64,000 nt of DNA from Paremcibacter congregatus (GTDB lineage: Bacteria > Pseudomonadota > Alphaproteobacteria > Sphingomonadales > Emcibacteraceae): positions 3,007,501 through 3,071,500 of the forward strand of contig NZ_CP041025.1 in the NCBI RefSeq assembly GCF_006385135.1, in the 5' to 3' direction. A program made the position numbers and the translations under genes. Below the pieces are notes generated by a model. That model worked only from the letters and a program-made list of their open reading frames with translations. It made no database searches and was not told the DNA's origin. Below, in pieces: positions 15,572-41,530 of this stretch. Numbering within the stretch: the stretch's first letter is position 1; every line of letters begins with the position of its first letter.

Positions 15572-16339
15572 ATGATTCAGTTTGTCAAAAAGCATAAAGT
15601 CACCTTCGGCCTTCTGGCCCTGTCCCTGATCAGTTTTCTCACCATCCTGATGGTTACCGGCGAAAAGGCCGCGGCCCAGGAGCTCTCGCTCAATCTGGGG
15701 GAAGAAGGTTCTTTATCCGGCCGGGTCGTGCAGCTATTGATGTTAATGACGGTTCTCAGCCTCGCACCGGCAATCGTGATCGTCATGACCTCCTTCACCC
15801 GTATCGCCATTGTCTTCTCTCTATTGCGCAGCGCCATGGGAACCCAGCAAACGCCCCCCAATGTGGTGCTGATCAGTCTCGCCCTGTTTCTGACGTCCTT
15901 TATCATGGCCCCCACCCTGAAGCAGGCTTACGACACCGGTGTCGCCCCGCTGGTCGCCGAGGAGATTACGGAAGAAGTCGCGTTCGAAAATATTACGGCC
16001 CCTTTTCACGCCTTCATGATGAAGCATGTGCGGGAAAAAGACCTTTTGCTGTTTCTCGACCTGTCCAAACTGCCCGCGCCGGCCACCAAACCGGACACCC
16101 CGTTTCAGGTGCTGGTCCCCGCCTTTATCATCAGTGAGTTGCGGCGCGCCTTCGAGATAGGCTTCCTGCTCTTCGTGCCTTTCATCATCATCGACCTGAT
16201 TGTTGCCTCGATCCTGATGTCCATGGGGATGATGATGCTGCCGCCGGTGATGATCTCTCTGCCCTTTAAGCTAATCTTTTTCGTGTTGGTTGATGGCTGG
16301 CACCTGGTCGCCGGCAGTCTGGTGCAAAGCTTCACCTAG
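15572..16339 (+). CDS. fliP: flagellar type III secretion system pore protein FliP
   Basis: 255 residues from the ATG at 15572; an in-frame GTG at 15539 lies inside fliO and is unlikely. A cleavable signal peptide (residues about 1-36, to EKAAAQ) is typical of FliP. Downstream are the signatures SFTRIAIVFSLLRSAMGTQQ and FIISELRRAFEIGFLLFVPF and a C-terminal LVDGWHLVAGSLV. It forms the export gate core with FliQ and FliR, whose genes are on the opposite strand 2-3 kb away. Last gene of flhX-fliO-fliP. Confidence 0.96.
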   Translation: MIQFVKKHKVTFGLLALSLISFLTILMVTGEKAAAQELSLNLGEEGSLSGRVVQLLMLMTVLSLAPAIVIVMTSFTRIAIVFSLLRSAMGTQQTPPNVVLISLALFLTSFIMAPTLKQAYDTGVAPLVAEEITEEVAFENITAPFHAFMMKHVREKDLLLFLDLSKLPAPATKPDTPFQVLVPAFIISELRRAFEIGFLLFVPFIIIDLIVASILMSMGMMMLPPVMISLPFKLIFFVLVDGWHLVAGSLVQSFT

Positions 16340-16363
16340 CGACCGGAAATTACATCACGCCGG

Positions 16364-16732
16364 TTATTTTATGCCATTGGCGCGCTGCAGTTCGCGGATA
16401 AAGGCGATGATTTTCGGGATATCTTCTGGCCTTATCGCGTCGATCACCGGCATGGGACCAAAGTCCCAATGGTGGGGTTCGACCCCATGGGTCAGGGCCC
16501 GGGCCAGAGCCACATCATCATGATGTCCCGGCCGGTAAAAGGGATGCAGCAAAGGCGGCCCCATACCGGTGCCCAGCGCCTGCGCCCCATGACATTTCAC
16601 GCAATTTTCCCGAAAGAGCGCATAGCCCTGCTGTGCCTCAGGAGAGAAGTCCGGTATATTGGCCTCCTGCGCCTGTGTATTTACCGCCCCTCCCAGAAAC
16701 ATCATCCCGCACAGAAAAAATATCTTTTTCAT
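16364..16732 (-). CDS. class I c-type cytochrome, periplasmic
   Basis: 122 residues: Sec signal peptide (MKKIFFLCGMMFLGGAVNTQA), one haem-binding CVKCH at about residues 40-44, and a distal GPMPVID region that can supply the axial Met. The segment HPFYRPGHHDD...HHWDFGPMP is rich in His. It begins 12 bases after the large membrane protein gene at 16745-18274 and is probably cotranscribed with it, suggesting an electron-transfer pair. Substrate unknown. Confidence 0.85.
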   Translation of the reverse strand: MKKIFFLCGMMFLGGAVNTQAQEANIPDFSPEAQQGYALFRENCVKCHGAQALGTGMGPPLLHPFYRPGHHDDVALARALTHGVEPHHWDFGPMPVIDAIRPEDIPKIIAFIRELQRANGIK

Positions 16733-16744
16733 AGATCTTTCCTT

Positions 16745-18274
16745 TTAATCGCCCTGGACAATGGGTTGCGCCAATATCCACAGGCTCATCATGGTATAGC
16801 CGATCATCAGCAGGATCAGCGGCATTTGTCCGATCAAGGCCTTCTTTGTCGTTTGGGCATTGCGCAGCGCCATTACATGCGCCAGATAGACCGCATAGAC
16901 ATGACCGATGACCACCGCGCCGACCGCCACCCACCAGGTGGCGCCAATCCCGATAATCCCCAGATCCAGTTGCCGCCCGCCGGTGCCAAGCAGGTCCCAT
17001 CCCATATTGAAGGGATCAGAAAACAACGGAATGGCCAGCTGCCCCGCCACCAGTAAAAAAGTCAGGTAGTGGGCAATATGGTAGGCAAAGCTGATCGGCA
17101 CCAGCGTCAGGATAAACAATCCCGACCAGTCCCGTGTCGACACACCGCTGTCGGTCAGGCGCGCCGACAGCCCGCATATGATACGATAGCTGATAAAGAA
17201 AATCACCGGCGTGATCAGCAGCCCCAACGTTTCAAACAGAACCAGCAAGTCCATGCCTTCTTTTTGCAGAGCGAACAATATTTTGAAAAGTCCTGGCTGC
17301 GCCAACAGCCAATGGACGATCTCCGCCCATTTTTCCGTATCGCGAAAACCGTCAAAGGTCACGGTGGCCAGCAGGATCAGCAACAGGCTCGTCGCGGCCC
17401 GGTCCAACGGCTGCCTCACCAGCAGACCCACCCCGAATGGTCTCAACCAAAGCCTATTATGCCCCGTGCCGTCGACCTCCGGACGCGCCACAATCGGCGC
17501 CATACGGGCGAGAAAACTAAAAATAATCGAGAAGACCTCAGCGCGCTTGAGCCAGGTGTCACGCCCGAATAAGAACATGCCCAGCCAGGTCAGGAGGCTA
17601 TAGGCCAGGATTAAACAGGCGAGTGACGCCGGGCGCTCGGCAAAGGGCGCCACCTGCTCCAGCCAGGCAAACAGCCAGAAGAGGAATACGCCCGGCCAGC
17701 AGGATAATTTTTCAGGGTAGCGCAAGCGACCACTATATGATCGGATGAGGGGAATTTTCTCGCCCCAGGTAAAAAGAATATTCCAGGGATTGACCAGCCG
17801 CCAGAGATCGCCGATCAACGCCTGGATATAGACCATGCCGACCCACCAGACCGACCAGACCAGAACCGGGGCCAGATTTCGCATGGGACTTTGCTGCCCG
17901 AGAAAACCGGCAAATATAATAAGAAGGAACAGCGCAACACTGAAAACCTGCAGCACGGGCACCATCAGATCAGCCGCCCGGCTTAGCATCTCCCGTCCCG
18001 GCCCCTGATAGCGCCAGAGGAGGCCATGCTTTTCACTATGTTTTCGGGTGAGGAACAGGGCCGCAATAAGGAACGATAGACTTACGGCAAGGCCCGCGCC
18101 CAAGACATAATAATAAAGCGGAATTTCCAATTGATAACGCGCGCCGAAGCCATGAGCCAAGGCCGTCAGTGGCGTCAGACCGACGCCCAGCATCAGCCAC
18201 AACACGCCAATTTTCAAAGGCCGCCGTATTTCAAACAAAGTTATAAACCAAGGTTTTTCTATCCCTCCGTGCAA
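16745..18274 (-). CDS. polytopic membrane protein of unknown function
   Basis: About 509 residues, with roughly ten or more hydrophobic helices and no soluble domain. The N-terminus contains AHGFGARYQLEIPLYYY, resembling proteins that have been loosely annotated as fenitrothion hydrolase in databases; I recognise no catalytic motif and do not infer that activity. The start is uncertain: the longest frame begins with TTG at 18272-18274, and GGAGGG just downstream suggests initiation may be further in. It sits with a c-type cytochrome (12-base gap) and is divergent from the yncE-like gene. Confidence 0.65.
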   Translation of the reverse strand: MHGGIEKPWFITLFEIRRPLKIGVLWLMLGVGLTPLTALAHGFGARYQLEIPLYYYVLGAGLAVSLSFLIAALFLTRKHSEKHGLLWRYQGPGREMLSRAADLMVPVLQVFSVALFLLIIFAGFLGQQSPMRNLAPVLVWSVWWVGMVYIQALIGDLWRLVNPWNILFTWGEKIPLIRSYSGRLRYPEKLSCWPGVFLFWLFAWLEQVAPFAERPASLACLILAYSLLTWLGMFLFGRDTWLKRAEVFSIIFSFLARMAPIVARPEVDGTGHNRLWLRPFGVGLLVRQPLDRAATSLLLILLATVTFDGFRDTEKWAEIVHWLLAQPGLFKILFALQKEGMDLLVLFETLGLLITPVIFFISYRIICGLSARLTDSGVSTRDWSGLFILTLVPISFAYHIAHYLTFLLVAGQLAIPLFSDPFNMGWDLLGTGGRQLDLGIIGIGATWWVAVGAVVIGHVYAVYLAHVMALRNAQTTKKALIGQMPLILLMIGYTMMSLWILAQPIVQGD

Positions 18275-18416
18275 TTACTCTATTTTTGCAGCAAAATTTG
18301 CAACCCATGATGACTTTACTACACATTTAATTAGTAAAATACCACAGAAACACCTATAATTGTATTACAAAATGTAGCTTACCCAAACACACGCAAAACA
18401 TACCAAGGATCGACGG

Positions 18417-19592
18417 ATGAAACTCTTAGGACTCATATGTGCCGGCCTAGCGACTCTGGGCGGCATGACATCACCAGCACAGGCAGAAATTCTCGCCATG
18501 ATGCTTTATGAAACAAAAAGTGCAGACAGTTTGAAAACACTGAAGCTGTCCGGCGTCGGGGAACGCAGGGAAGGCATCCTTATTATGGATGTGGATCCGG
18601 CTTCGGCGCAATTCGGCGCGGTGATGTGGGACATGCCGCTCGCCAATGACACAACATCACATCATATCTTCTACGACCGAACCATGACCAAGGGCTATAT
18701 CACCGCCCTGACAAAAAGGGAGCTCGGCATTCTGGACATGACGAAAAATCCCTACCGGCGGACAACCATTCCCATGCCCGACTGTGGCATGGGCGAAGAT
18801 GTCACCTTCAATGAAAAAAATACCCGCTGGTATCTGACCTGCATGGATTCCTCGACCATCATCGTTGGCGATGTCAAAACCGACAAGGTCATTGAAGTCA
18901 TTCAAACCCCCGGCGTTTATCCGCACGGGCTGGCGGTGAACAGCAAAATCAATCGCATTCTTGCCACCAGTACCGTTAAAGGGGATATGACAAATCCAGG
19001 TGAAACCATCATCGAAATTGACGCGACGACACATGAAATTCTGGGAAGCCACAAGCTGTCCCTGAAGCCGTCCCCTTCCGGGGAAGCTCCCGTCGAAATC
19101 CTCTTTGTCCCGGGCGCAAAAAATCCGATCGCCTATATCACCAACATGTTTGGCAACACCCTTTGGACCGCCACATGGGACAAGGCCTCCCGCACCTTCA
19201 AGACCGAACAGGTTTTTGATTTCGCGACGGAAAATGCCGGTGTACCACTGGAGATTTATTTCAACAAAGCCGTAGATACCATGTATGTCACCTCCGCCAG
19301 CCCGGGGTTCCTGCATATTTTTGATGTATCCAAGGATAAAGGCCATCCGAAATTGATCAAAAGCATCAAAACGGGTCAGGGCTCGCACCATATCGCCTTC
19401 ACCAAAGACGAAAAAATGGGCTTCGTGCAAAACAGCCTGCTCAATCTGCCGGGCATGTCCGAAGGTACCATCAATGTGGTGGATCTGGAAAAACAGGAAG
19501 TGATTTCCACGATCGATACCCTGGTTAAAATGGGCATGAACCCCAATGTGATTGTTCTGCTGCCCGAGAATAACGCCTTTGCCGGGCATTAA
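18417..19592 (+). CDS. YncE-like periplasmic beta-propeller protein
   Basis: 391 residues: signal peptide (about 1-24, ending PAQA) followed by repeated blades with patterns such as GDVKTDKVIEVIQTPGVYPHGLAV and IFDVSKDKGHPKLIKSIKTG (YVTN/lactonase-type propeller). Such proteins bind DNA, metals or cofactors or act as lactonases; nothing here selects one. AAGGA precedes the ATG. It is divergent from the cytochrome/membrane-protein pair. Its 3' end, stop codon and terminator are duplicated at 21650-21763 as part of the tandem duplication. Confidence 0.82.
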   Translation: MKLLGLICAGLATLGGMTSPAQAEILAMMLYETKSADSLKTLKLSGVGERREGILIMDVDPASAQFGAVMWDMPLANDTTSHHIFYDRTMTKGYITALTKRELGILDMTKNPYRRTTIPMPDCGMGEDVTFNEKNTRWYLTCMDSSTIIVGDVKTDKVIEVIQTPGVYPHGLAVNSKINRILATSTVKGDMTNPGETIIEIDATTHEILGSHKLSLKPSPSGEAPVEILFVPGAKNPIAYITNMFGNTLWTATWDKASRTFKTEQVFDFATENAGVPLEIYFNKAVDTMYVTSASPGFLHIFDVSKDKGHPKLIKSIKTGQGSHHIAFTKDEKMGFVQNSLLNLPGMSEGTINVVDLEKQEVISTIDTLVKMGMNPNVIVLLPENNAFAGH

Positions 19593-19616
19593 GTCGCTTT
19601 AAACACACCATCAGTC

Positions 19617-19656
19617 AAGGCCGCTCCTTTTCTATCATAGAATAAGGCGCGGCCTT
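19617..19656 (+). terminator. hairpin terminator after the yncE-like gene (copy 1)
   Basis: AAGGCCGC at 19617-19624 pairs with GCGGCCTT at 19648-19655 across a 23-base loop. The T-run is short. The same structure recurs at 21724-21763. Confidence 0.55.
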
Positions 19657-19725
19657 TATCATCATCGACCTGATCATTGCCTCAGACCTGATGTCCCCGA
19701 ACCAGGGTGCTGGCCTAGGCCGCCT

Positions 19726-19854
19726 GCGATTTTATGACCCCTCACTTCACAATATTAACCACTGATGTCGAGAACAGTTATGACTCCCAAACTGAAATTA
19801 AAAAATTCAAACAGGCGAATGCGGTAATTTATCAATATCCGGTATTCTCGTTCA
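19726..19854 (+). pseudogene. remnant of the MdaB-like oxidoreductase gene
   Basis: Colinear with 22401-22529 in the intact gene (constant offset 2675 bases), covering about 43 of its 184 codons. The left edge joins DNA from the left of hxlR (568 bases lost relative to copy 2) and the right edge joins the middle of mipA at a shared GGTTCA (584 bases lost). It cannot encode a functional enzyme. Confidence 0.85.
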
Positions 19855-20399
19855 TAGACCGGCAGAACCGGCTTATCTGAATTCTCAAGATTGTCCGCAA
19901 CTATTTTATTATGCTGGTTCCCCGTGACACCCCATACATAATTTACCATCTTACGGCTCATACAGCTCCCCCCGACCTGGGAGGTGAATATCCATTTATA
20001 GCGTCGATCATGAAATGTATCGCTATACGCACCGATAACTTCCTTATCGTTACTGGTGCCCGTCACATCCTGCAGGAACGTCACGTCGAATACCCTGAAA
20101 TCCCTCCTCACCCCTACTCTCAGGCCAAATTCGACTGTAAATTTTTGACGGATTTCCCCGGCTCGAAAACGACCATTACCTACCACATCCTGGAAAAAAA
20201 CCGCTTTTTTCTCTTCTGCCGACGCCGTGATATGACATCCCCCTTCAATCCCCTGCAGGAACAGCCCGTCACTCTCATTAGCTACAAAGGGGATTGGTGT
20301 GATTGATGTGTCCTCGGCAGCAATAGCCGCTCTCGGGACACATACAACAAGTATACATAAAGCCATTTTTAAGTTCAGTATCGCGGTAAAATTTTGCAT
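19849..20399 (-). pseudogene. degenerate MipA/OmpV-family outer membrane protein gene
   Basis: Read from the ATG at 20399 it matches the intact protein at 22930-23724 through the signal peptide and most strands. It lacks 22 residues after the signal peptide (an in-frame 66-base loss) and everything after KPVLPVYE. The open frame runs on to 19755 through antisense oxidoreductase sequence, so the native beta-barrel C-terminus, ending in Phe in the intact copy, is replaced by unrelated residues. Outer-membrane insertion should fail. Confidence 0.85.
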
Positions 20400-20426
20400 A
20401 AATAAATCTTTGCCTGTTGAAGTCAA

Positions 20427-20759
20427 AAAAAGTTAGTCAATTTTCCATACTGGGTTTCAGCCTGTTCGGACTTAAGGAGTGGCGTTCTTTCCTGCAGATA
20501 TGAATTCCCCCGTCAGGCTCGGCGGCCTCGTGATCCAGAAAAGAAAGCAGAAGATTATCGCCTTGATAATATTCATTTTAGCCCTTTACTGCCCTTGTAT
20601 ATTTTGCCATTGTGCCTCCCATATCATTGTTGCAAAAACGATAGATCAGGTAAGGCCTGTGAAGACGATGGGTAATATGAAAAAGAACCGGGAACAAACT
20701 CACTTTCGTGAAGATGCGGAATTCCTTCGCCAAAAAGGGCGTGACGGGACAAACGTAAA
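20427..20759. repeat. conserved spacer of the duplication, copy 1 (homologous to 23752-24085)
   Basis: A 333-base stretch between the damaged mipA and the lytTR gene, closely matching 23752-24085. It probably holds the divergent promoters for both genes. The only coding sign is a short frame at 20668-20763. The longer frame through this region is broken by a one-base C-run difference in copy 2, so it is not a conserved protein. Confidence 0.75.
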
Positions 20760-20763
20760 ATGA
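20668..20763 (+). CDS. possible 31-residue leader peptide coupled to the lytTR gene
   Basis: ATG at 20668, reading MGNMKKNREQTHFREDAE (first 18 residues). Its stop TGA overlaps the ATG of the lytTR gene (ATGA). Copy 2 keeps the frame at the equivalent place with one amino-acid change and two silent changes. Ribosome site weak. Could equally be untranslated leader. Confidence 0.3.
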   Translation: MGNMKKNREQTHFREDAEFLRQKGRDGTNVK

Positions 20764-21605
20764 CGTTACGTGAATTATATGCACTCTGGATGTTTCAGAA
20801 TCGTCTTATCGTCATCTGCAGATCTGCATTTCTGTCTCTGTTTGGCCTGTTTCTGGCATTTGTCGGCACCTATGACACCTACGACCTGCCTTTTATCTGG
20901 CGGACACTCTACTGGATCGGTTTCATGAATTATGGTGGCCTGTGGATGAGCCTCGCCGCCGGGCTGACTTTCCCCCGACTGATTGAAAGACGCCGCCCGG
21001 TCTGGCTCGCCATGGCCTGGCTTAATGGGCTCAGCAGCATCCCAATATTTCTTACCGTGAAGGCCGTCAGCATTGAGTTATACATCGCCCAGGAAAATGA
21101 TTTGGCTCTTTCCTGGCAAACCATTAGGGAATTTTACCTCAGAGAAGGCAACACCATCGCTGACCTGCTGCTTGGGTATATGGAAGTCCTGGTGATCTGT
21201 ATCGCAGTCAGCTGTTTCGTCTACAGCCTGTTTTATTTATGGCACAAAAGCCAGATAAAAAAAACGCCCGACATTGCCCCCACCCTCCCTGCCGGGTATA
21301 AATTCCTCAACCGGTTGCCCGCTTCCCAAAAAACTCGGCTGGTCTGCCTGGCAATGGAAGACCATTATGTGCGCGCCTATACTGATACGACGGATCACCT
21401 GATCCTGTTACGTCTGAAAGATGCAATTTCCGAGCTGGCGGATTATAGCGGGCAGCAGGTCCATAGGTCTTGGTGGGTAGCCTACGATGCCATCCGCCAT
21501 AGCCGGAAAGAAGGGCGTCGCTACATCCTGACCCTAAACAATGGTATGGAAGTTCCCGTCTCTCAAACCCACGCGCCGGAGCTGAAAGACCTGAAGTTTA
21601 TTTGA
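20760..21605 (+). CDS. LytTR-family DNA-binding transcriptional regulator with N-terminal membrane domain
   Basis: 281 residues. Four hydrophobic segments occupy about residues 15-160; the C-terminal 90 residues form a LytTR domain (RLVCLAMEDHYVRAYT, VHRSWWVAYDAIRH, LTLNNGMEVPVSQTH). Proteins of this membrane-LytTR layout bind direct repeats in promoters and are often autoregulated together with a membrane partner. No receiver domain or cognate kinase is present. It is divergent from the mipA copy, which makes mipA a natural target (inference). A truncated copy lies at 24086-24250. Confidence 0.87.
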   Translation: MTLRELYALWMFQNRLIVICRSAFLSLFGLFLAFVGTYDTYDLPFIWRTLYWIGFMNYGGLWMSLAAGLTFPRLIERRRPVWLAMAWLNGLSSIPIFLTVKAVSIELYIAQENDLALSWQTIREFYLREGNTIADLLLGYMEVLVICIAVSCFVYSLFYLWHKSQIKKTPDIAPTLPAGYKFLNRLPASQKTRLVCLAMEDHYVRAYTDTTDHLILLRLKDAISELADYSGQQVHRSWWVAYDAIRHSRKEGRRYILTLNNGMEVPVSQTHAPELKDLKFI

Positions 21606-21649
21606 CCCGGATGACGTTTCGCAGAAGCAGTACCCCAAACAGACCGGAT

Positions 21650-21699
21650 GGAAAAACCGGCTTCGTGCAAAACAGCCTGCTCAACCTGACGGGCATTAA
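21650..21699 (+). pseudogene. remnant of the yncE-like gene 3' end
   Basis: Matches 19413-19450 and then 19584-19592; 133 bases are missing exactly between two GGGCAT-containing repeats of the parent (19451 and 19584). It retains the stop codon and the downstream terminator. Confidence 0.85.
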
Positions 21700-21723
21700 G
21701 CCGCTTTAAACACACCATCAGTC

Positions 21724-21763
21724 AAGGCCGCTCCTTTTCTATCATGGAATAAGGCGCGGCCTT
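21724..21763 (+). terminator. duplicated yncE-like terminator (copy 2)
   Basis: Same AAGGCCGC...GCGGCCTT stem as 19617-19656. It now lies between the lytTR gene (ends 21605, plus strand) and hxlR (ends 21824, minus strand), where it could end lytTR transcription. Confidence 0.55.
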
Positions 21764-21823
21764 TATCATCTGCGACCTGATCATTTCCTCAGACCTGATG
21801 TCCCCGAACCAGAGTACTGCCTT

Positions 21824-22180
21824 TTATAGCGCCTTATCGAGCGCCCACTCCTTCAGCGCTTCCAGAATGTGAAGCGCGCTTCGACCCTCCGTGCTGATGC
21901 GATAACTGACAGCGATGGGCTTTTCCTTCAGAACGGTGCGAATCACCAGTCCCTGACGTTCCATTTCTGTCAGACGTTGATTGATCATCTTCTTGCTGGC
22001 CCCATCCAGTTGCCGGGTCAGTTCATTAAAACGCACAGGTTCATCTTTCAGGTGCCACAATATCGAAGCTTTCCATTTCCCCCCGAGAATGCGCATGCCT
22101 CTTTCTATCGGACATGGTACGCCACAGGGCTCTGCGGTAATGCCCGGCGTCTTCTTTTTTTCACTATATTCAGGTCCCAT
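21824..22180 (-). CDS. HxlR-family winged-helix transcriptional regulator
   Basis: 118 residues. The family start PCPIERGMRILGGKWKASIL is followed by the recognition region RFNELTRQLDGASKKMINQRL and the wing. Cys19 and Cys23 precede the DNA-binding domain; a cysteine at the Cys23 position is the thiol sensor in several HxlR proteins that respond to quinones, aldehydes or disulfide stress (family knowledge). It is divergent from the MdaB-like oxidoreductase with a 135-base spacer, the classic layout for repressor and target. The copy-1 counterpart is deleted. Confidence 0.9.
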   Translation of the reverse strand: MGPEYSEKKKTPGITAEPCGVPCPIERGMRILGGKWKASILWHLKDEPVRFNELTRQLDGASKKMINQRLTEMERQGLVIRTVLKEKPIAVSYRISTEGRSALHILEALKEWALDKAL

Positions 22181-22315
22181 ACCCTTGTTCCTTCGTGCAT
22201 TTCCTGCACATCCATACCAGGTTACTAAAAGTATACTGGTTGACTTTATATACCATAAATTTCATTTACAAAACCATTGAATGAAATATCACAATTTTAA
22301 ATGGAGCAGATGCAA
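22181..22315. promoter_or_regulatory. divergent hxlR / oxidoreductase control region
   Basis: AT-rich spacer holding both promoters. TTGACT near 22239 and the nearby AGTATACT dyad are candidate promoter and operator elements on sequence appearance only; no HxlR site can be assigned firmly. Confidence 0.4.
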
Positions 22316-22870
22316 ATGAAAACCATATTGATTATATCCGGACAGGAAACCACGGGCGCCGCCAAAGGGAACTATAACCGGGGACTGGCCCGGGCCGCCC
22401 GCGATTTTCTGGCCCCTCACTTCACAATATTAACCACTGATGTCGAGGACAGCTATGACCCCCAAACTGAAATTGAGAAATTCAAACAGGCGGACGCGGT
22501 AATTTATCAATATCCGGTATTCTGGTTCACCGTCCCGTCGCGTCTCAAGCATTATATTGATCAGGTCTACGCCTATGATGTTTTTTTTGGCCAGCCGGAG
22601 GCCCGCTATGGCAGCGGCGGTTTGATGGACGGTAAGAAAGTCATGCTGTCAACGACCTGGAATGCGCCTTCCGATGCCTTCAACGATACCACCGCCTTCT
22701 TTGAAGGTCTCTCGGTCGAAGAAGCTCTGCTCCCCATGCGCAAAACCCACACCTATTGCGGCTTTACCGAATTGCCGCATTTCTCTGTCCATGACATTGT
22801 CGTTAATCCGGATTTTGAGGCCGACAGGGCCCGTCTCGAAGATCACCTTCAGGCCGTCTTTAACTTGTAA
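22316..22870 (+). CDS. NAD(P)H-dependent oxidoreductase, MdaB/flavodoxin-fold family
   Basis: 184 residues from the ATG at 22316, which has GGAG nine bases upstream (ATGs at 22301 and 22310 are alternatives). Pattern KTILIISGQETTGAAKG (nucleotide-binding loop), ADAVIYQYPVFWFTVPSRLK and the YGSGGLMDGKK segment follow MdaB/YwrO-type quinone reductases that bind FAD or FMN. Probable role: two-electron reduction of quinones or electrophiles under control of the adjacent HxlR protein. A 129-base remnant of this gene is present in copy 1. Confidence 0.88.
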   Translation: MKTILIISGQETTGAAKGNYNRGLARAARDFLAPHFTILTTDVEDSYDPQTEIEKFKQADAVIYQYPVFWFTVPSRLKHYIDQVYAYDVFFGQPEARYGSGGLMDGKKVMLSTTWNAPSDAFNDTTAFFEGLSVEEALLPMRKTHTYCGFTELPHFSVHDIVVNPDFEADRARLEDHLQAVFNL

Positions 22871-22884
22871 CCCAGAGCTTCAGG

Positions 22885-22923
22885 AAGGGAGAGGGAGCGC
22901 ACAAATGCCCCGCTCTCTCCCTT
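22885..22923. terminator. hairpin between convergent oxidoreductase and mipA genes
   Basis: AAGGGAGAG...GGAGCG pairs imperfectly with CGCTCTCTCCCTT across the spacer. There is no long T-run on either strand. Confidence 0.4.
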
Positions 22924-22929
22924 CAACAG

Positions 22930-23724
22930 TTAAAAACTGTATGAGACCCCCATCCCTAAAGTCAGGTCATAATCTTTGTCAATGCCGGGGTTATCGGTGA
23001 TCTTGCGATCAAGTCTGGTCACCTGGCTGAGCGCAAAAGCGCTCCAATGATCATCAAAGCGATGCACCAATGTTGCCCCGGCAAAATAATTCATCACTGC
23101 CGCCCCCGGTTCATAGATCGGCAGAACCGGCTTATCTGAATTCTCAACGTTGTCCACAACCATTTTATTATGCTGGCCCTGCGTGACACCCCATACATAA
23201 TTTGCCATCTTGCGGCTCATCCAGCTCATCCCGACCCGGGGGGTGAATATCCATTTATAGCGTTGATCATGAAATGTATAACTATACGCACCGATAACTT
23301 CCTGACCGTTACTGGTGCCCGTCACATCCTGCAGGAACGTCACATCGAATACCCCGAAATCGCTTCTCATCCCTGCTCTCAGACCAACGTCGACTGTAAA
23401 TTTCTGACGGGTTTCCCCGGCCCGGAAACGACCACTGCCCACCACATCCAGGAAAAATCCCGCTTTTTTCTCTTCTGCCGACGCCGTGATATGATACCCC
23501 CCTTCGATCCCTTGCAGGAACAGTCCCTCACTCTCATAAGCCACATAGGGGATTGGTGTGACTGATGTGCCCTCGGCGGCAAAAGGCGACGAGTTCATCA
23601 TCATACCTGCGCCCACGGACCACTTTCCCCCGCCCCTTTCTTCGGCAAGAGCCGCTCTAGGGGCACATACAACAAGTATACATAAAGCCATTTTCATGTT
23701 CAGTATCGCGGTAAAATTTTGCAT
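22930..23724 (-). CDS. MipA/OmpV family outer membrane protein
   Basis: 264 residues from the ATG at 23724 (a TTG at 23751 is possible). Signal peptide about 1-26 (ending PRAALA), then GKWSVGAGMMMNSSPF and alternating beta-strands ending GMGVSYSF with the C-terminal Phe used for BAM recognition. The family includes the MltA-interacting protein MipA and osmoregulated OmpV. It is convergent with the oxidoreductase and divergent from the lytTR remnant. It is the intact counterpart of the damaged gene at 19849-20399. Confidence 0.87.
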   Translation of the reverse strand: MQNFTAILNMKMALCILVVCAPRAALAEERGGGKWSVGAGMMMNSSPFAAEGTSVTPIPYVAYESEGLFLQGIEGGYHITASAEEKKAGFFLDVVGSGRFRAGETRQKFTVDVGLRAGMRSDFGVFDVTFLQDVTGTSNGQEVIGAYSYTFHDQRYKWIFTPRVGMSWMSRKMANYVWGVTQGQHNKMVVDNVENSDKPVLPIYEPGAAVMNYFAGATLVHRFDDHWSAFALSQVTRLDRKITDNPGIDKDYDLTLGMGVSYSF

Positions 23725-23751
23725 AAATAAATCTTTGCCTGTTGAAGTCAA

Positions 23752-24085
23752 AAAGAGTTAGTCAATTTTCTATACGGGGTTTCAGCCTGCTCAGATCAAA
23801 AGAGTGGCGTTCTTTCCTGCAGATATGAATTCCCCCCGTCAGGCTCGGCGGCCCCGTGATCCAGAAAAGAAAGTAGAGGATTATCGCCCTGATAATATTC
23901 ATTTCAGTCCTTTACTGCCCCTGTATATTTTGTCATTGTGCCTCCCGTATCATTGTTGCAAAAACGATAGATCAGGTAGGTCCTGTGAAGACGATGGGTA
24001 ATATGAAAAAGTACCGGGAACAAACTCACTTTCGTGAAGATGCAGAATTCCTTCGCCAAAAAGGGCGCGACGGGACAAACGTAAA
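23752..24085. repeat. conserved spacer of the duplication, copy 2
   Basis: Closely matches 20427-20759, including the short frame that ends in ATGA at the former lytTR start. An extra C in the run near 23836 breaks the longer frame seen in copy 1. No other gene seen. Confidence 0.75.
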
Positions 24086-24250
24086 ATGACGTTACGTGAA
24101 TTATATATCCTCTGGGTGTTTCAGAACCGTCTTATCATCATCTGCGTTTCTGTCTCTGTTTGGCCTGTTTCTGGCAAACAATTAGGGAATTTTACCTCAG
24201 GGAAGGTAACACCATCACTGACCTGCCGGGTGTGAATTTCTCAACCGGTT
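24086..24250 (+). pseudogene. truncated lytTR gene remnant
   Basis: Starts with the same ATGACGTTACGTGAATTATA as the intact gene, but has lost 9 bases early on, 260 bases between CTGGCA repeats and 124 bases between CCTGC repeats. It ends before the LytTR DNA-binding domain, so it cannot bind DNA. Confidence 0.85.
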
Positions 24251-24256
24251 TCGCCT

Positions 24257-27202
24257 CTAATTCTGTTCTACCGCGTCGGTGAATTCGGCGCGGTAGGATT
24301 CCATAAAGGTTTCCAACTTGGCGACACTGGCGATCGACCGGGTCAGCCGCCGCACATCAGTGTCCGTCGATTGTTGCTCCGCCGTAATCACTTCGAAAGT
24401 ATCGCCATACAGGCCATCGTCCATATGCGATTTGTAGCGGTCCCGCAGCACCTTGATCCCCGCCTTGTCATTGTTGATGGCATAGGCCACCGACAAGCGC
24501 AGCACCGCCAACCGCTCCTCCGGGGTCAGCACCGCATCCTGCTGATAGCGACCGCCAAGAAGACGGTTGCTGTGGGCGATGTATTTATCCCAGTTCTCGT
24601 CCTTCCAGTAGATGTCTGAACGCAGTTCTTCCGCCTCCGCCGTCCGGTAAGGTTCAACCATTACTTCGGCTTCTTCAAAGCGTTCAAGTTCAATCAGGGC
24701 ACGAACTTCGATCATATTACGCCGGTCAACAATATCACGCGGAATCTGTGAATTCCGCGTGGCCCGCAAAATTCCCAGCGCCTTGTCCGGCTTTGAATCC
24801 AGCAGATATATCATCGCCAGACGACTGGCGACCGCAGCCTGGGCCCCGCCTTTCAGGCGGAACTCAATCTGATGTTCCAGCAGTTCTTCGGCTTCTTCCA
24901 ACAGATCAATGGACACCAGCCGATCCGCCAGGCGCCGCGCCATCTGATCACCGTCAGCCCCAAGAGGAATAAGTTCACGGAATTCGGAATAGAGCGCCAC
25001 GGCCCGCACCGGTTCCATGCTGTCCGCCTTGCCGCTGAGAAACAGATTGCTGTAAATACGGTTCATCTGCCGAGTCAGAACCGCAACCCGACGCTGGTTC
25101 TTGAAAAACGTCACCGCCAGTTTTAAGGTTTTCAGGCCGGTATAGAAATCATTTTGCGCCACATACAGATCCCCGAGCCGGGATAACAATTCAAGCTCGA
25201 AATCATCCCCACGCCAGGCAAACCGTAGCTTCTCAAGCTGGTCTATGGCCTCTGCATTGGTTATTTTCTCGCGTTCCAGATCAAGATTAACCAAATCAAG
25301 CTTGGCCCGCGCCGCCGTTTCACGTGCCCCCGCTTTGACAACCCCCTCAAGCGCCCCTTCCGCTCCCAAGGGATTACCGTTATCTCTCTCTAACAAGGCC
25401 TGCCAGTAATCAACGTCCGTCATCTCGTTCGCATTCAGGGGCAATTCCCGCAAGACCGTCAAGGCAGATTCAACAAAATCCCGATCGGCCTGAGCATAGG
25501 CCGACTGAATGGCGGCGAAGAGAAAACGAATGCGATCCCGTGGTTCTTGCAGAGACAGGATATCGGCGCCTTTCAGGAAATCCTTCAGGGCCTGTTCATG
25601 GTCCCCCAGCCCGCTATGGGCCACCGCCCGCCAGAGAAAAGTACTTTCTTCTGCGATCAGGCTTTTGTGCGTCAACAACTTGGCGCCTTCGTCGAACCGA
25701 CGCATCAAAATATTGGCAACCCCCAGAACCGTCCTGAAAGATGGGTTCTGCTGCAATGCGGCATCATCGTCCTTCATAACATTCAGGATACCATAGGCGC
25801 TTCGAACCCGCCCGTTTGCCAGATAGAACCGCGCCAGACGCCAGCGTTTTTCATTACGATCATTGTTTGTCGCATTAGCCAGTTGATACAGAAGTTCATG
25901 TTTATTGGCGTGATAATCATCATTATCGGCCAATGGCCCTTTCGCCCAGGACGGAAAATCTATCAACCTTTCCGGTTCACCGTTGCTCGCCACATCCAGA
26001 CCAAGTTTGCTCGACAAATCCCCTTGAGAGATCGCCAGACCATTCTGGTTCGATACGCTCACCCCATTGCGATGCTTCAGGATTGAGAGGTTGTCAGCGA
26101 TCAGTTGGACCGCGATCCCCTGAGCTGTTTCCAAGGCTTCAAATTCTGTATATTTATGGGCCTGAATAACACCTTGTGACGAGGCGGCTACCGGCACAAT
26201 GGCCAGGTCATCCCCGATAACCGGGTCTTCAATCACCATAACAGGACCGCTGTTTTTCACAGAAAAGAAAAAATTCTCGCCAGGGGTATTGGCGATACGT
26301 TTATGACTGCCGGGAATGGGGATAGAGGGCACCACCCGTCCATCCTGCAGGTCGATATGCCACCCGGTGCCGATCTTCTGGGCTTTGACATTCTGCCCCG
26401 GCATAATGGCGTAAACCAGAACCGTCATAGAAGGATGTTCAATCTGTCGACCGGACAGAATCCGCTTCCCGATAAAACGGTCAAGCCTTGTCTGATCAAC
26501 CGGCCGGTAATCCTCAAACACAACCCAAAGCGTGTTATAGCGGGTAAAAACCGCCGCGAGCTTGTCCGTTTCCCACGGATAACTCAACCGAATACGCTCG
26601 CCCCGAAACTGATTAACCCCAAGCTTTAAAGCCCCGGAATTCACGGGCCGTTGGTCTTGCGCTGCCTGTTGTGTCTCAGTCCCTCCCTGTGCCATTGGCG
26701 CAGCGGAAGGGACCAGAGCCTCTTGTTCTACAGCACCGGCCGGAGAGGTTTTTACCGTCGGATCAGACGAGTTCCGTTGATCCCAAAAAACGTCAAAGGC
26801 CACCTTCGTGCCATCACGAAAATGGCTAAGCTGCGCCGGGGCTGTTACCTTAAAGCGTACAATTAAACGCCCCTCTTCCACGCGGGAAGTCGGCGTTCCG
26901 ACAAAACGCAAGGCCCTGTTCTCCAACGTGTTCCAGTTCGGGGTCGCTGTCCTGTCAAAGGAGATTTCCAGGTAATCGCCGTTCAATGTCGGACGGTATT
27001 CAACCCTGTCCTGCCAATCGAAAACCACCCGGGTAAAGTCCGGGTGATCTGCCGAGCGCACATTGACCATTTCCTGCGCGAACAAGGCCCCGGGCAGCAT
27101 GCCGATCATCAGGGCCGCACAGCAGGAAAGCCGCGCTCTCATCAAGAAACCGGACCTAAAAACTGAGCGTATCATCACCATAATATAACTATTCACCGTC
27201 AT
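24257..27202 (-). CDS. large periplasmic TPR-repeat protein with N-terminal AMIN-like domain (flagellar/motor cluster)
   Basis: 981 residues. A signal peptide lies near residues 22-42 (to GALFAQ), then an AMIN-like beta domain (about 45-140: NVRSADHPDFTRVVFDW) and a linker. From about residue 430 a long alpha-helical array of TPR-like repeats follows (examples RLARFYLANGRVRSAYGILN, WRAVAHSGLGDHEQALKDFL). Its ATG overlaps the stop of the MotB-like gene upstream (ATGA at 27199-27202), so the two are translationally coupled. AMIN domains target the peptidoglycan/septal region, which suggests a wall-associated scaffold for the MotB-like pair (inference). Confidence 0.75.
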   Translation of the reverse strand: MTVNSYIMVMIRSVFRSGFLMRARLSCCAALMIGMLPGALFAQEMVNVRSADHPDFTRVVFDWQDRVEYRPTLNGDYLEISFDRTATPNWNTLENRALRFVGTPTSRVEEGRLIVRFKVTAPAQLSHFRDGTKVAFDVFWDQRNSSDPTVKTSPAGAVEQEALVPSAAPMAQGGTETQQAAQDQRPVNSGALKLGVNQFRGERIRLSYPWETDKLAAVFTRYNTLWVVFEDYRPVDQTRLDRFIGKRILSGRQIEHPSMTVLVYAIMPGQNVKAQKIGTGWHIDLQDGRVVPSIPIPGSHKRIANTPGENFFFSVKNSGPVMVIEDPVIGDDLAIVPVAASSQGVIQAHKYTEFEALETAQGIAVQLIADNLSILKHRNGVSVSNQNGLAISQGDLSSKLGLDVASNGEPERLIDFPSWAKGPLADNDDYHANKHELLYQLANATNNDRNEKRWRLARFYLANGRVRSAYGILNVMKDDDAALQQNPSFRTVLGVANILMRRFDEGAKLLTHKSLIAEESTFLWRAVAHSGLGDHEQALKDFLKGADILSLQEPRDRIRFLFAAIQSAYAQADRDFVESALTVLRELPLNANEMTDVDYWQALLERDNGNPLGAEGALEGVVKAGARETAARAKLDLVNLDLEREKITNAEAIDQLEKLRFAWRGDDFELELLSRLGDLYVAQNDFYTGLKTLKLAVTFFKNQRRVAVLTRQMNRIYSNLFLSGKADSMEPVRAVALYSEFRELIPLGADGDQMARRLADRLVSIDLLEEAEELLEHQIEFRLKGGAQAAVASRLAMIYLLDSKPDKALGILRATRNSQIPRDIVDRRNMIEVRALIELERFEEAEVMVEPYRTAEAEELRSDIYWKDENWDKYIAHSNRLLGGRYQQDAVLTPEERLAVLRLSVAYAINNDKAGIKVLRDRYKSHMDDGLYGDTFEVITAEQQSTDTDVRRLTRSIASVAKLETFMESYRAEFTDAVEQN

Positions 27203-27936
27203 TTCTTGTCCCCTGCAATGGCCTGCAGTGGCGCTTTGGTGTCCTGATGAATAAAGATATCCACGCGCCGGGCAAGGAGATAACGATCACTAAGCAGAAT
27301 ATTCTGATCCAGGGCAGAAAAACGCGAAGGGCCGTTACCAAACGTTTCTATATTCTGGCTGTATCCCGCGGCTTCGATCATTTGCGCCACGGAAATTGCC
27401 CGCACCAGGGATAATTCCCAATTGGTCGGATAGCGTCGCCCGCTGGTCGGTTCCAGATCCGTATGGCCAACGACCGTAATTTTATTGGGTATGGATTCCA
27501 GTGCAACCGCCAATTCCTGCAGCGACTTATACGCCCCAGGGGAGAATTTTGACGCACCTTTTTCAAAAATAAGGTCCGCGGGCAAGGCAATCGCCAGCCG
27601 GTCATCCAGTTCCGTCACCGTGCTGCGCCGTAAAATCGGGTCATATTGAAGTTTGTCACTGAAAATCCGGTTGAGATAACTCAGGTTCAGGGCTTCCTTG
27701 ATCGGGATTTGAGCCGCCTCGACATTTTGCCAGTCCTCTTCCTGAATCTGCGCCCGTTCCGGGTTGAGATTTTCACTGAGAGACTCGACCACCGCTTTCC
27801 ATTTCGACACCTGCACCGAACTCATGGAAAACATCAAAACAAAGAAGGTCAGCAACAGCGCTAAAAGATCGGCGAATACGATCATCCAGCTGTCCTTGTT
27901 GGCCTGTTCCGGGGACTTGTTTAAATCCAGATTCAT
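27199..27936 (-). CDS. MotB-like stator protein with OmpA peptidoglycan-binding domain
   Basis: 245 residues. The N-terminal helix SWMIVFADLLALLLTFFVLM carries Asp23 at the position of the MotB proton-binding Asp. The C-terminal OmpA/MotB domain has VVGHTDLEPTSG and NWELSLVRA. It overlaps the gene before it by four bases and the TPR gene after it by four bases, so the three form a coupled set. No motA gene is found in the window. Whether this is the main flagellar stator subunit or a paralogue cannot be told from here. Confidence 0.88.
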   Translation of the reverse strand: MNLDLNKSPEQANKDSWMIVFADLLALLLTFFVLMFSMSSVQVSKWKAVVESLSENLNPERAQIQEEDWQNVEAAQIPIKEALNLSYLNRIFSDKLQYDPILRRSTVTELDDRLAIALPADLIFEKGASKFSPGAYKSLQELAVALESIPNKITVVGHTDLEPTSGRRYPTNWELSLVRAISVAQMIEAAGYSQNIETFGNGPSRFSALDQNILLSDRYLLARRVDIFIHQDTKAPLQAIAGDKK

Positions 27937-28667
27937 AAATCACCCCCCGCCCCAGAACCATTTTTGATCGCGTGGTCTTTCAGGTTCTGGTTCACATTGA
28001 TCCGTTCCCGGGTATAAAAAGTAATACTGACATTGTCATCCGCGCCCTTCACAATCCCGATAGAGATCTGATCCCCGGGAACGCCGTTCTTTTTCAGGGC
28101 ATGAACGAATGCACCGGCCCTGAGAATATTGAGATCCTCCCAGTAGCGCGGGCCCCGCGGCAGGGTTTTACCGGCAGAAAGGACAATCTCGATCTCGCGT
28201 TTCTCACTGCTGCGGCTGCTTTTCAAAAACGTCGCGAGCTGTTGCAGAAAGGCGGACTGCAGAGGCCGGAACTCAATGGTATCCGGTTCGAACAGATCAC
28301 TGGGTTTAAAATTCACCTTTACGATATGCCCCCCTTTGGTGGGGAACTTACCCTCAAAGCCGACAAGAGACGCAAAAATGCCCTGAATTTGGGCATAGAA
28401 TTCATCATTGGGGGTGGAGGCATCCTGTTTGGCCGCAACATCAACAAAGTCGGCTTCTGGCTCATACGGATTTTTAAAAGCCCGGGTTACACTCTCTGTC
28501 GCCGCGTTGACCTTATTCTGTTCCTGATTTGAAATAGAATTCATCACAACAAAGAAGGCCAGAACAATCAGATACAGGGATACAAACAGGCCAGTGGTCG
28601 AATCCGGCCGTGACTTTGGTTCTTCAAAAGGGGATATTTCCCCTACTTTCCTGATATCTTCATTCAT
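27933..28667 (-). CDS. second MotB-like protein lacking the channel Asp
   Basis: 244 residues. A single N-terminal helix (TTGLFVSLYLIVLAFFVVMN) aligns with that of the next gene, but Ser30 takes the place of the proton-binding Asp. In the C-terminal domain the peptidoglycan motif GHTD is missing (LSAGKT instead), while the following helix WEDLNILRAGAFVHAL is retained. It looks like a structural or regulatory partner of the catalytic MotB-like subunit. It is overlapped by the next gene (ATGA) and follows cheZ by 55 bases. Confidence 0.78.
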   Translation of the reverse strand: MNEDIRKVGEISPFEEPKSRPDSTTGLFVSLYLIVLAFFVVMNSISNQEQNKVNAATESVTRAFKNPYEPEADFVDVAAKQDASTPNDEFYAQIQGIFASLVGFEGKFPTKGGHIVKVNFKPSDLFEPDTIEFRPLQSAFLQQLATFLKSSRSSEKREIEIVLSAGKTLPRGPRYWEDLNILRAGAFVHALKKNGVPGDQISIGIVKGADDNVSITFYTRERINVNQNLKDHAIKNGSGAGGDL

Positions 28668-39708: not shown

Positions 39709-39778
39709 TAGTAACCAGTGATTAATGCCCTCGAAGGGCCATACATGTTTAGAATGTAACTCATGGAAGGAGAGCGGA

Positions 39779-40609
39779 ATGGCTTTCTCAGTTAATACAA
39801 ATGCAAGCGCCCTATCGGCGTTGTTGAATTTGAATAATACGACACGGGACCTCGAAAAGACCCAGACCAACATTAATACCGGTTTGAAAATTTCGTCAGC
39901 CAAAGATAATGCCGCGATTTTCTCCATCGCCCAGAAACTACGGGCGGACCTGAGAGGCTATAACGCCGTTAAGCAAAGTCTGGACCGGTCCATCAGCACC
40001 ACCGACATTGCCTTGGCGGCGGCCGGATCCATTTCCGACCTGTTGATTGAAATGAAGGAAAAAACGGTTGCCGCTTCCGATAGCGGTCTGGACGCCACCA
40101 GCCGAACCGCCTTGAATGAAGATTTCGCCGCTCTGCGCGATCAAATCAGCACTATTGTCGCCAATGCGGAGTTTAACGGCACCAACCTGATTGATGCGGG
40201 AACTGATGCTGTTGTGGCCATCACCAACCCGAATGCCACACAAACCATCTCCATCGCGCATCAAAACCTGACTCTGGGGGGGGGTAATGTAGATATCACA
40301 GCAACACAAACCATTACAACCCAGGCCGATGCAACTGTGGCATTGGCAGCCATCACGGCTTCCCTGACAAAGGTCAGCGCCGTTTTGACCAAACTAGGGG
40401 CCGGGGGTAAATCTTTGGAATCACAACGAATTTTTGCTGATAAAATTTCGGATACCATAGAAGTCGGGATCGGGAATCTGGTGGACGCCAACATGGCCAA
40501 GGAAAGCGCCAACCTGCAATCTCTTCAGGTCAAGCAGCAACTTGGCGTTCAGGCGCTCTCGATCGCCAATCAGGCTCCACAATCAATTCTATCTCTCTTT
40601 GGTCAATAA
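39779..40609 (+). CDS. flagellin 1
   Basis: 276 residues from the ATG at 39779 (GGAAGGAGAG upstream). N-terminal D0/D1 motif NASALSALLNLNNTTRDLEK, INTGLKISSAKDNAAIFSIA; C-terminal GIGNLVDANMAKESANLQSL and LGVQALSIANQAPQSILSLF. Only the D0/D1 core with a small central region is present, the short alphaproteobacterial type. It is closely similar to flagellin 2 and lies 90 bases before it. Confidence 0.95.
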   Translation: MAFSVNTNASALSALLNLNNTTRDLEKTQTNINTGLKISSAKDNAAIFSIAQKLRADLRGYNAVKQSLDRSISTTDIALAAAGSISDLLIEMKEKTVAASDSGLDATSRTALNEDFAALRDQISTIVANAEFNGTNLIDAGTDAVVAITNPNATQTISIAHQNLTLGGGNVDITATQTITTQADATVALAAITASLTKVSAVLTKLGAGGKSLESQRIFADKISDTIEVGIGNLVDANMAKESANLQSLQVKQQLGVQALSIANQAPQSILSLFGQ

Positions 40610-40699
40610 AATCAAAGAGAGACTTTGGGGATCGTTAAGCGGCTGGGCTGAATGGCCCACGTGCATAGAAAAATGTACTTACTAGAATAGGAATGAAAA

Positions 40700-41530
40700 A
40701 TGGCTTTTTCCGTCAATACAAATACGAGCGCCCTCTCGGCCCTCTTTAACCTGAACAGCACAACCCGACAACTTGAGAGCACCCAGACCCATATCAATAC
40801 CGGGTTAAAAATATCCTCCGCCAAGGACAATGCCGCCATTTTCTCAATTGCTCAAAAACTGCGGGGCGATTTGAAGGGATATAATGCCGTAAAGCAAAGT
40901 CTTGACAGATCCATCAGCACCACCGACATCGCCCTGGCGGCGGCCGGATCGATTTCTGATCTATTGATTGAAATGAAGGAAAAAGCGACCGCAGCATCGG
41001 ATTCCGGCCTGGACGCCACCAGCCGAACAGCGCTGAACGAAGATTTCATCGCGTTGCGCGATCAGATCACCACGATGGTGAGCAACGCGGAATTCAACGG
41101 CACCAATATGATTGACGCCGGCACGGATGTGGTCACAGCCATCACAAATCCCAGCGCAACACAAACCATCACCATCGCCCATCAAAACATGGCTCTCGGC
41201 GGCGGCATTGTCGACGTCACCGCGACCCAAACAATCGCGACACAGGTAGATGCCTCAGTAACCCTGGCCCTTATCACCGCATCCCTGACCAAGGTCAGCG
41301 CCTCTCTCACCAAACTCGGCGCCGGGGCAAAATCACTTGAAGCACAACGGGTCTTCGCCGACAAAATCGCTGATACGATTGAAGTGGGGATCGGAAATCT
41401 GGTGGACGCCAACATGGCCAAGGAAAGCGCCAACCTTCAAGCGCTTCAGGTCAAGCAGCAGCTGGGGGTTCAGGCCCTGTCCATCGCCAACCAGGCCCCA
41501 CAGTCTATTCTGAATATTTTTGGCGGGTAA
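40700..41530 (+). CDS. flagellin 2
   Basis: 276 residues, same length as flagellin 1 and nearly the same sequence through most of D0/D1 (FSIAQKLR..LKGYNAVKQSLDRS and the C-terminal half). Differences cluster in the middle (for example VTATQTIATQVDASVTL). No clear sigma-54 element lies in the 90-base gap; transcription may continue from flagellin 1. A bidirectional terminator follows. Confidence 0.95.
   Translation: MAFSVNTNTSALSALFNLNSTTRQLESTQTHINTGLKISSAKDNAAIFSIAQKLRGDLKGYNAVKQSLDRSISTTDIALAAAGSISDLLIEMKEKATAASDSGLDATSRTALNEDFIALRDQITTMVSNAEFNGTNMIDAGTDVVTAITNPSATQTITIAHQNMALGGGIVDVTATQTIATQVDASVTLALITASLTKVSASLTKLGAGAKSLEAQRVFADKIADTIEVGIGNLVDANMAKESANLQALQVKQQLGVQALSIANQAPQSILNIFGG

Follow-up and report, generated by a model that had tools for sequence, protein, structure and literature searches.

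In a 64,000-nucleotide window of the Paremcibacter congregatus chromosome (positions 3007501-3071500 of a single contig of 4,189,011 bases), a block running from the end of a yncE-like beta-propeller gene through hxlR, an oxidoreductase gene, and mipA to lytTR is present twice, head to tail (Table 1). A tandem duplication followed by complementary loss is, with high probability, the best explanation of its sequence. Duplicate fractionation had been put forward in the original prediction, made from the sequence alone, and it is upheld by colinear gaps confined to one copy at a time, by short direct repeats at the gap ends, by a raised ratio of nonsynonymous to synonymous substitution rates (dN/dS) in mipA, and by broken conserved residues in the copy 1 MipA.

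Alignment of the two copies

A repeat search and gapped self-alignment placed copy 1 at 19412-21316 and copy 2 at 21652-24250, in nine colinear blocks with identities of 0.889-0.968. The copies are identical at 1262 of 1380 aligned bases (91.4%), and transitions make up 86 of the 118 differences. There are eight gaps, and every one is confined to a single copy: 568, 584, 66, and 1 bp are missing from copy 1, while 133, 8, 260, and 124 bp are missing from copy 2. By arithmetic from the alignment, the undivided unit measured about 3.5 kb. Copy 1 lost about 1.2 kb of it (hxlR, most of the oxidoreductase gene, and the end of mipA) and copy 2 about 0.9 kb (most of lytTR). Each gene is whole in exactly one copy and is a remnant or a deletion in the other, yncE having been duplicated only in part.

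The order yncE end, terminator, hxlR, oxidoreductase, mipA, spacer, and lytTR had been predicted to occur twice, and the nine blocks at 91.4% identity agree. The prediction had named a lack of colinear similarity outside mipA as evidence against itself; the similarity reaches well beyond that gene. hxlR, the oxidoreductase gene, and mipA are all whole in copy 2 by their Pfam matches, and the lost genes were rightly described as remnants or clean deletions, as seen from the one-sided gaps. Copy 1 does keep yncE and lytTR, but yncE was not lost from copy 2 as a gene, since the tail found there starts inside the gene at about codon 331. When a block is duplicated head to tail, the original flanking sequence on the left stays with the left copy and that on the right with the right copy. 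Therefore, the copy 2 yncE was probably truncated at its origin by the border of the duplication and never whole, and the copy 2 lytTR would initially have been whole and cut later.

We propose a head-to-tail duplication of some 3.5 kb, reaching from the interior of yncE to a point shortly beyond lytTR. Each copy would then have lost different pieces by deletion between direct repeats of 5-10 bp, by replication slippage or other RecA-independent pathways. With lytTR retained in copy 1 and hxlR, the oxidoreductase gene, and mipA in copy 2, the order yncE-hxlR-oxidoreductase-mipA-lytTR would have become yncE-lytTR-hxlR-oxidoreductase-mipA. By the layout of the map, homologous recombination between any of the shared blocks left of 20853 would delete the intact lytTR, so that once the copy 2 lytTR was lost the duplication could not have collapsed without loss. 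The layout would thereby lock the duplication, although the sign of constraint is indirect and concerns mipA only. We infer that the duplication was a single event, and likewise infer the order of the losses and selection on all the surviving genes.

Short repeats at the deletion ends

The losses look like deletions between short repeats. Five of the six gaps longer than 60 bp bear exact end repeats of 5-10 bp. The repeat lengths are 10 in yncE, 1 between hxlR and the oxidoreductase gene, 6 between the oxidoreductase gene and mipA, 6 in mipA, and 6 and 5 in lytTR, with a sum of 34; the 8-bp gap in lytTR has an end repeat of 7. In 20,000 simulated sets of randomly placed deletions with matching lengths, the sum averaged 4.1 and never reached 34, and the probability of a repeat of at least 5 bp at a single deletion was 0.0069. 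Because the aligner might favour repeats, the simulation was rerun on 400 sets (2400 deletions in all), with the sequences mutated by 8.6% and realigned after the deletions. None of the 400 sets reached 34, the maximum sum was 12, and the chance of a repeat of at least 5 bp was 0.0054; no set had more than one such repeat among its six deletions.

Divergence of the copies and loss of constraint

Over 191 codons, the mipA pair has a dS of 0.170, a dN of 0.089, and a dN/dS of 0.53. One neutral and one constrained mipA predict a ratio of about 0.54, and thus the observed value fits one drifting copy. An intact mipA pair from two genomes of the same other genus (G084 and G068) has a dN/dS of 0.082 at a dS of 0.192, and their lytTR genes have 0.032. 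Two further intact comparisons were discarded for synonymous saturation (G020/G026 and G020/G028), the latter being at 21% identity and probably misframed. The remaining part of the oxidoreductase gene has a ratio of 0.52 over 47 codons with one stop, and the yncE pair 0.41 over 14 codons. A remnant evolving without constraint is therefore seen for mipA (0.53 versus 0.082) and less clearly for lytTR (0.26).

The MipA residues point to copy 1 as the drifting one. The two proteins differ at 34 residues; judged by 19 relatives, copy 2 is favoured at 23 of these and copy 1 at 7, and 4 are ties (sign test, p 0.005). Moreover, 7 of 29 conserved columns are broken in copy 1 and 1 in copy 2.

Comparison with relatives

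A MipA protein search of 196 genomes, G000 counted among them, found a match in 21 other genomes. In six of these (G068, G072 twice, G084, G092, G094, and G106), a lytTR gene is the divergent neighbour of mipA, and the order in these seven pairs is that found inside each copy. Six of the seven pairs were inspected with about 7-8 kb on either side, and no match to hxlR, the oxidoreductase gene, or yncE was found there. A contig search with MipA as a single query gave no match; with a MipA alignment as query it gave nine loci, of which five have lytTR, and hxlR, the oxidoreductase gene, and yncE were found at none of the nine. The oxidoreductase has a match in 12 other genomes, and an hxlR gene is its divergent neighbour at one of five loci inspected (L081, G086; protein identities 62% and 53%). 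From these comparisons, the unit appears to unite two divergent regulator-target pairs that are found apart elsewhere.

In the 15 genomes of the same genus, mipA has no match at a cut-off of 1e-10. Therefore, either this lineage gained the block or the others lost it. A DNA search of 60 relatives gave matches in seven besides the genome itself, and these were long only for yncE in G012 and G013, whose genes are 75% and 73% identical to the yncE-like gene at the protein level. The synteny search that had been suggested for an undivided yncE-hxlR-oxidoreductase-mipA-lytTR unit found separate pairs only. The ancestral order thus rests on the two copies and the separate divergent pairs.

Alternative explanations

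Several observations weigh against duplication with complementary loss. No genome searched yielded the undivided five-gene unit, and neither the original right border nor the duplication junction can be placed exactly. The 568-bp gap, the second largest, has an exact end repeat of only 1 bp, and its ends are only loosely alike. The lytTR ratio of 0.26, over 53 codons, falls under the roughly 0.52 predicted for a neutral remnant, which could reflect small numbers or the loss of lytTR from copy 2 at a later time. An early death of the copy 1 mipA is at odds with its 191 codons without a stop and with a 66-bp deletion that is in frame.

Two diverged alleles from different strains might instead have been joined by transfer and adjacent integration, most of the 8.6% difference being older and the losses later. 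The lack of the block in the 15 same-genus genomes, as judged by the MipA search, makes transfer plausible. However, working alleles should have a low dN/dS, as the intact mipA pair does (0.082 at a similar dS), whereas this pair shows 0.53 and copy 1 breaks 7 of the 29 conserved MipA columns. Therefore, most of the divergence arose while one copy was dispensable, and we regard the joining of two alleles as improbable. It is very improbable that the remnants are alive, the truncated copy 1 MipA or the short copy 2 LytTR having a regulatory or new role. The 223-amino-acid frame of the copy 1 mipA still matches Pfam MipA and has the 191 codons without a stop, but a dN/dS of 0.53 and the loss of the barrel domain end and of conserved residues argue against a working protein, and the copy 2 lytTR remnant lacks the DNA-binding part. 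Nothing was found in favour of a misassembled allele posing as a second copy, which has next to no probability, since the genome is a single contig, 118 of the 1380 aligned sites distinguish the copies, and each has intact genes that the other lacks.

Conserved non-coding regions and the fliP fragment

The divergent region between mipA and lytTR is more alike in the two copies than are the synonymous sites of the four genes taken together: 23 of 333 bases differ in the former and 32 of 203 sites in the latter (p 0.0018; p 0.0066 with mipA as the sole reference). Beyond the 3' end of yncE, 5 of 112 bases differ (p 0.0030). This low divergence probably reflects a role for each copy of the divergent region in driving one surviving gene, and for the copy 2 hairpin in ending lytTR. 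Local gene conversion between the copies would likewise lower the non-coding divergence and may have contributed. A terminator had been predicted after yncE; a hairpin does fold in both copies, but its T tail is weak and the consensus terminator scan does not list it. That scan gave 2 matches versus 5.3 expected, and a consensus promoter scan gave 9 versus 6.3 (standard deviation 2.4), within about one standard deviation; neither was used.

CGTGAA-like words, noticed by eye, recur between mipA and lytTR (about 20700-20780 and 24026-24106) and in several relatives (among L063-L068), and they are possibly a candidate LytTR site. A possible small gene in this region, read from a 94-amino-acid frame of copy 1 whose sequence overlaps the start of lytTR, was rejected: an extra C in a run in copy 2 breaks the frame, and the differences are even across codon positions (5, 5, and 4).

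Just 3' of the yncE hairpin, both copies carry a 45-base piece of fliP in the orientation of fliP, and the piece predates the block duplication. It may be a scar left at the junction of an earlier tandem duplication, from the fliP interior to the yncE terminator, because GCCTTT and ATCATC are found on both sides; the rest of that older copy would then be gone. A search of 19590-24256 against the rest of the window (E up to 0.05) matched the yncE tail and both pieces of fliP but nothing else, and gave no other trace of an older duplication.

Relation to known models of gene-order change

In the SNAP hypothesis, as set out in the part of Brandis and Hughes (2020, PMC7055797) available to us, a duplication becomes fixed, and the gene order changed, once different needed genes have gone from the two copies. 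The same part of that paper describes duplications of tens of kb or more, formed between repeats and kept by dosage selection, and proposes hunting for intermediate steps in modern chromosomes, such as pseudogenes with matching active copies. A follow-up (PMC8046335, likewise available in part) applies the model to operon clusters. The present locus resembles SNAP in the duplication, the inactivation of different genes in each copy, the presumed loss of the collapse option, and the new gene order. It differs in that the unit is about 3.5 kb and lacks long flanking repeats, and the likeness shown is one of form; essentiality of the genes and selection for dosage are hypothetical here. By its sequence, the locus can be described as a SNAP intermediate in form, at the scale of four whole genes. 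The mitochondrial tandem duplication-random loss model, as far as the accounts available to us go, has the same sequence of events and the same product, with remnants between kept genes, whereas here the setting is a bacterial chromosome and the losses are individually readable as short-repeat deletions. The loss of the collapse option would be the locking step of either model.

Tentatively, the locus may be a natural SNAP-type intermediate in which a divergent regulator-target pair, lytTR and mipA, is split between the copies with both shared promoter regions conserved, one per gene, and in which the fliP fragment of both copies may record an older duplication, making two nested rounds; we consider this combination possible but doubtful. 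Beyond the two SNAP papers, our literature search, in sources available in part, recognised no bacterial complementary loss after tandem duplication, which does not mean that none has been published.

The way in which gene order changes in bacteria is under debate, and a finished duplication-loss event leaves no trace. The remnants here reveal which piece left which copy, which repeat lies at its ends, and roughly how early it went. Colinear remnants, one-sided gaps, short repeats, and raised dN/dS can serve as a template for a genome-wide search for intermediates, a test suggested in the available part of Brandis and Hughes (2020). The locus is also a natural test in which a regulator and its divergent neighbour have each been given their own copy of a shared promoter.

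Genes and surroundings of the locus

The coordinates of all features are listed in Table 1. The yncE-like gene has no Pfam match, and NCBIfam beta-propeller families including YncE match only below the cut-off. The oxidoreductase had been named mdaB, a name that no match supports; its best NCBIfam match is KefF, also under the model's cut-off. The copy 2 lytTR remnant ends within 10 bases of the stop of the next gene, a TPR gene at 24257-27202.

Table 1. Features of the duplicated block and aligned blocks of the two copies (window positions)
Feature	Position	Strand	Remarks
yncE-like beta-propeller gene, intact	18417-19592	+	Open reading frame; last part is left end of copy 1
Terminator-like hairpin after yncE, copy 1	19617-19656	+	RNA fold -23.1 kcal/mol, z -7.64
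fliP fragment, copy 1	19652-19696	+ (fliP orientation)	87% to fliP 16177-16222
Oxidoreductase remnant, copy 1	19705-19848	+	Codons 27-74; one stop in 47 codons
mipA remnant, copy 1	19849-20426	-	3' end lost, plus 66 bp near 5' end; conserved residues broken
mipA-lytTR divergent intergenic region, copy 1	20427-20759	.	Differs from copy 2 at 23/333 bases
lytTR, intact, sole whole copy	20760-21605	+	Pfam LytTR 9.4e-15
Putative tandem duplication junction, downstream of lytTR joined to yncE interior	21606-21651	.	Alignment limits
yncE tail, copy 2	21652-21699	+	Internal 133-bp deletion between two TGCCGGGCAT repeats
Terminator-like hairpin, copy 2, now downstream of lytTR	21724-21763	+	RNA fold -22.8 kcal/mol, z -5.70
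fliP fragment, copy 2	21759-21803	+	80% to fliP 16177-16222
hxlR, intact, sole copy	21824-22180	-	Pfam HxlR 1.3e-21
Flavodoxin-fold oxidoreductase (KefF-like), intact	22301-22870	+	Pfam Flavodoxin_2 2.7e-33
mipA, intact	22930-23751	-	Pfam MipA 7e-32; tblastn identity 32.7-44.2% to 19 relatives
mipA-lytTR divergent intergenic region, copy 2	23752-24085	.	Alignment
lytTR remnant, copy 2	24086-24250	+	Deletions of 8, 260, 124 bp; 3' end lost
Block 1 (copy 1 / copy 2)	19412-19446 / 21652-21686		
Block 2	19580-19704 / 21687-21811		
Block 3	19705-19848 / 22380-22523		
Block 4	19849-20317 / 23108-23576		
Block 5	20318-20506 / 23643-23831		
Block 6	20507-20813 / 23833-24139		
Block 7	20822-20852 / 24140-24170		
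Block 8	21113-21163 / 24171-24221		
Block 9	21288-21316 / 24222-24250		

Among 26 other genomes matching both fliP and the TPR gene (tallied by hand), the two genes are convergent and at most 150 bp apart in nine (G006, G008, G010, G016, G017, G018, G019, G032, and G039), and their adjacency looks ancestral. They are at most 1 kb apart in two more (G034 and G040), distant on one contig in five (G013, G035, G037, G038, and G041), and on separate contigs in ten, which is uninformative for fragmented assemblies. Here, about 7.9 kb (16340-24256) separates these two flagellar-region genes, and it holds a cytochrome-like gene, a gene for a 509-amino-acid membrane protein, yncE, and the duplicated block. 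The membrane protein gene and yncE form a divergent pair in G013 at a different place. A truncated fliP end was considered as the left border of the insert and dropped, as fliP ends vary among relatives.

Elsewhere in the window, 27199-27936 and 27933-28667 are adjoining MotB/OmpA-like genes, the second of which matches Pfam weakly. A direct repeat of 300 bases at 79% identity (39778-40077 and 40699-40998) lies inside the adjoining open reading frames 39725-40609 and 40700-41530.

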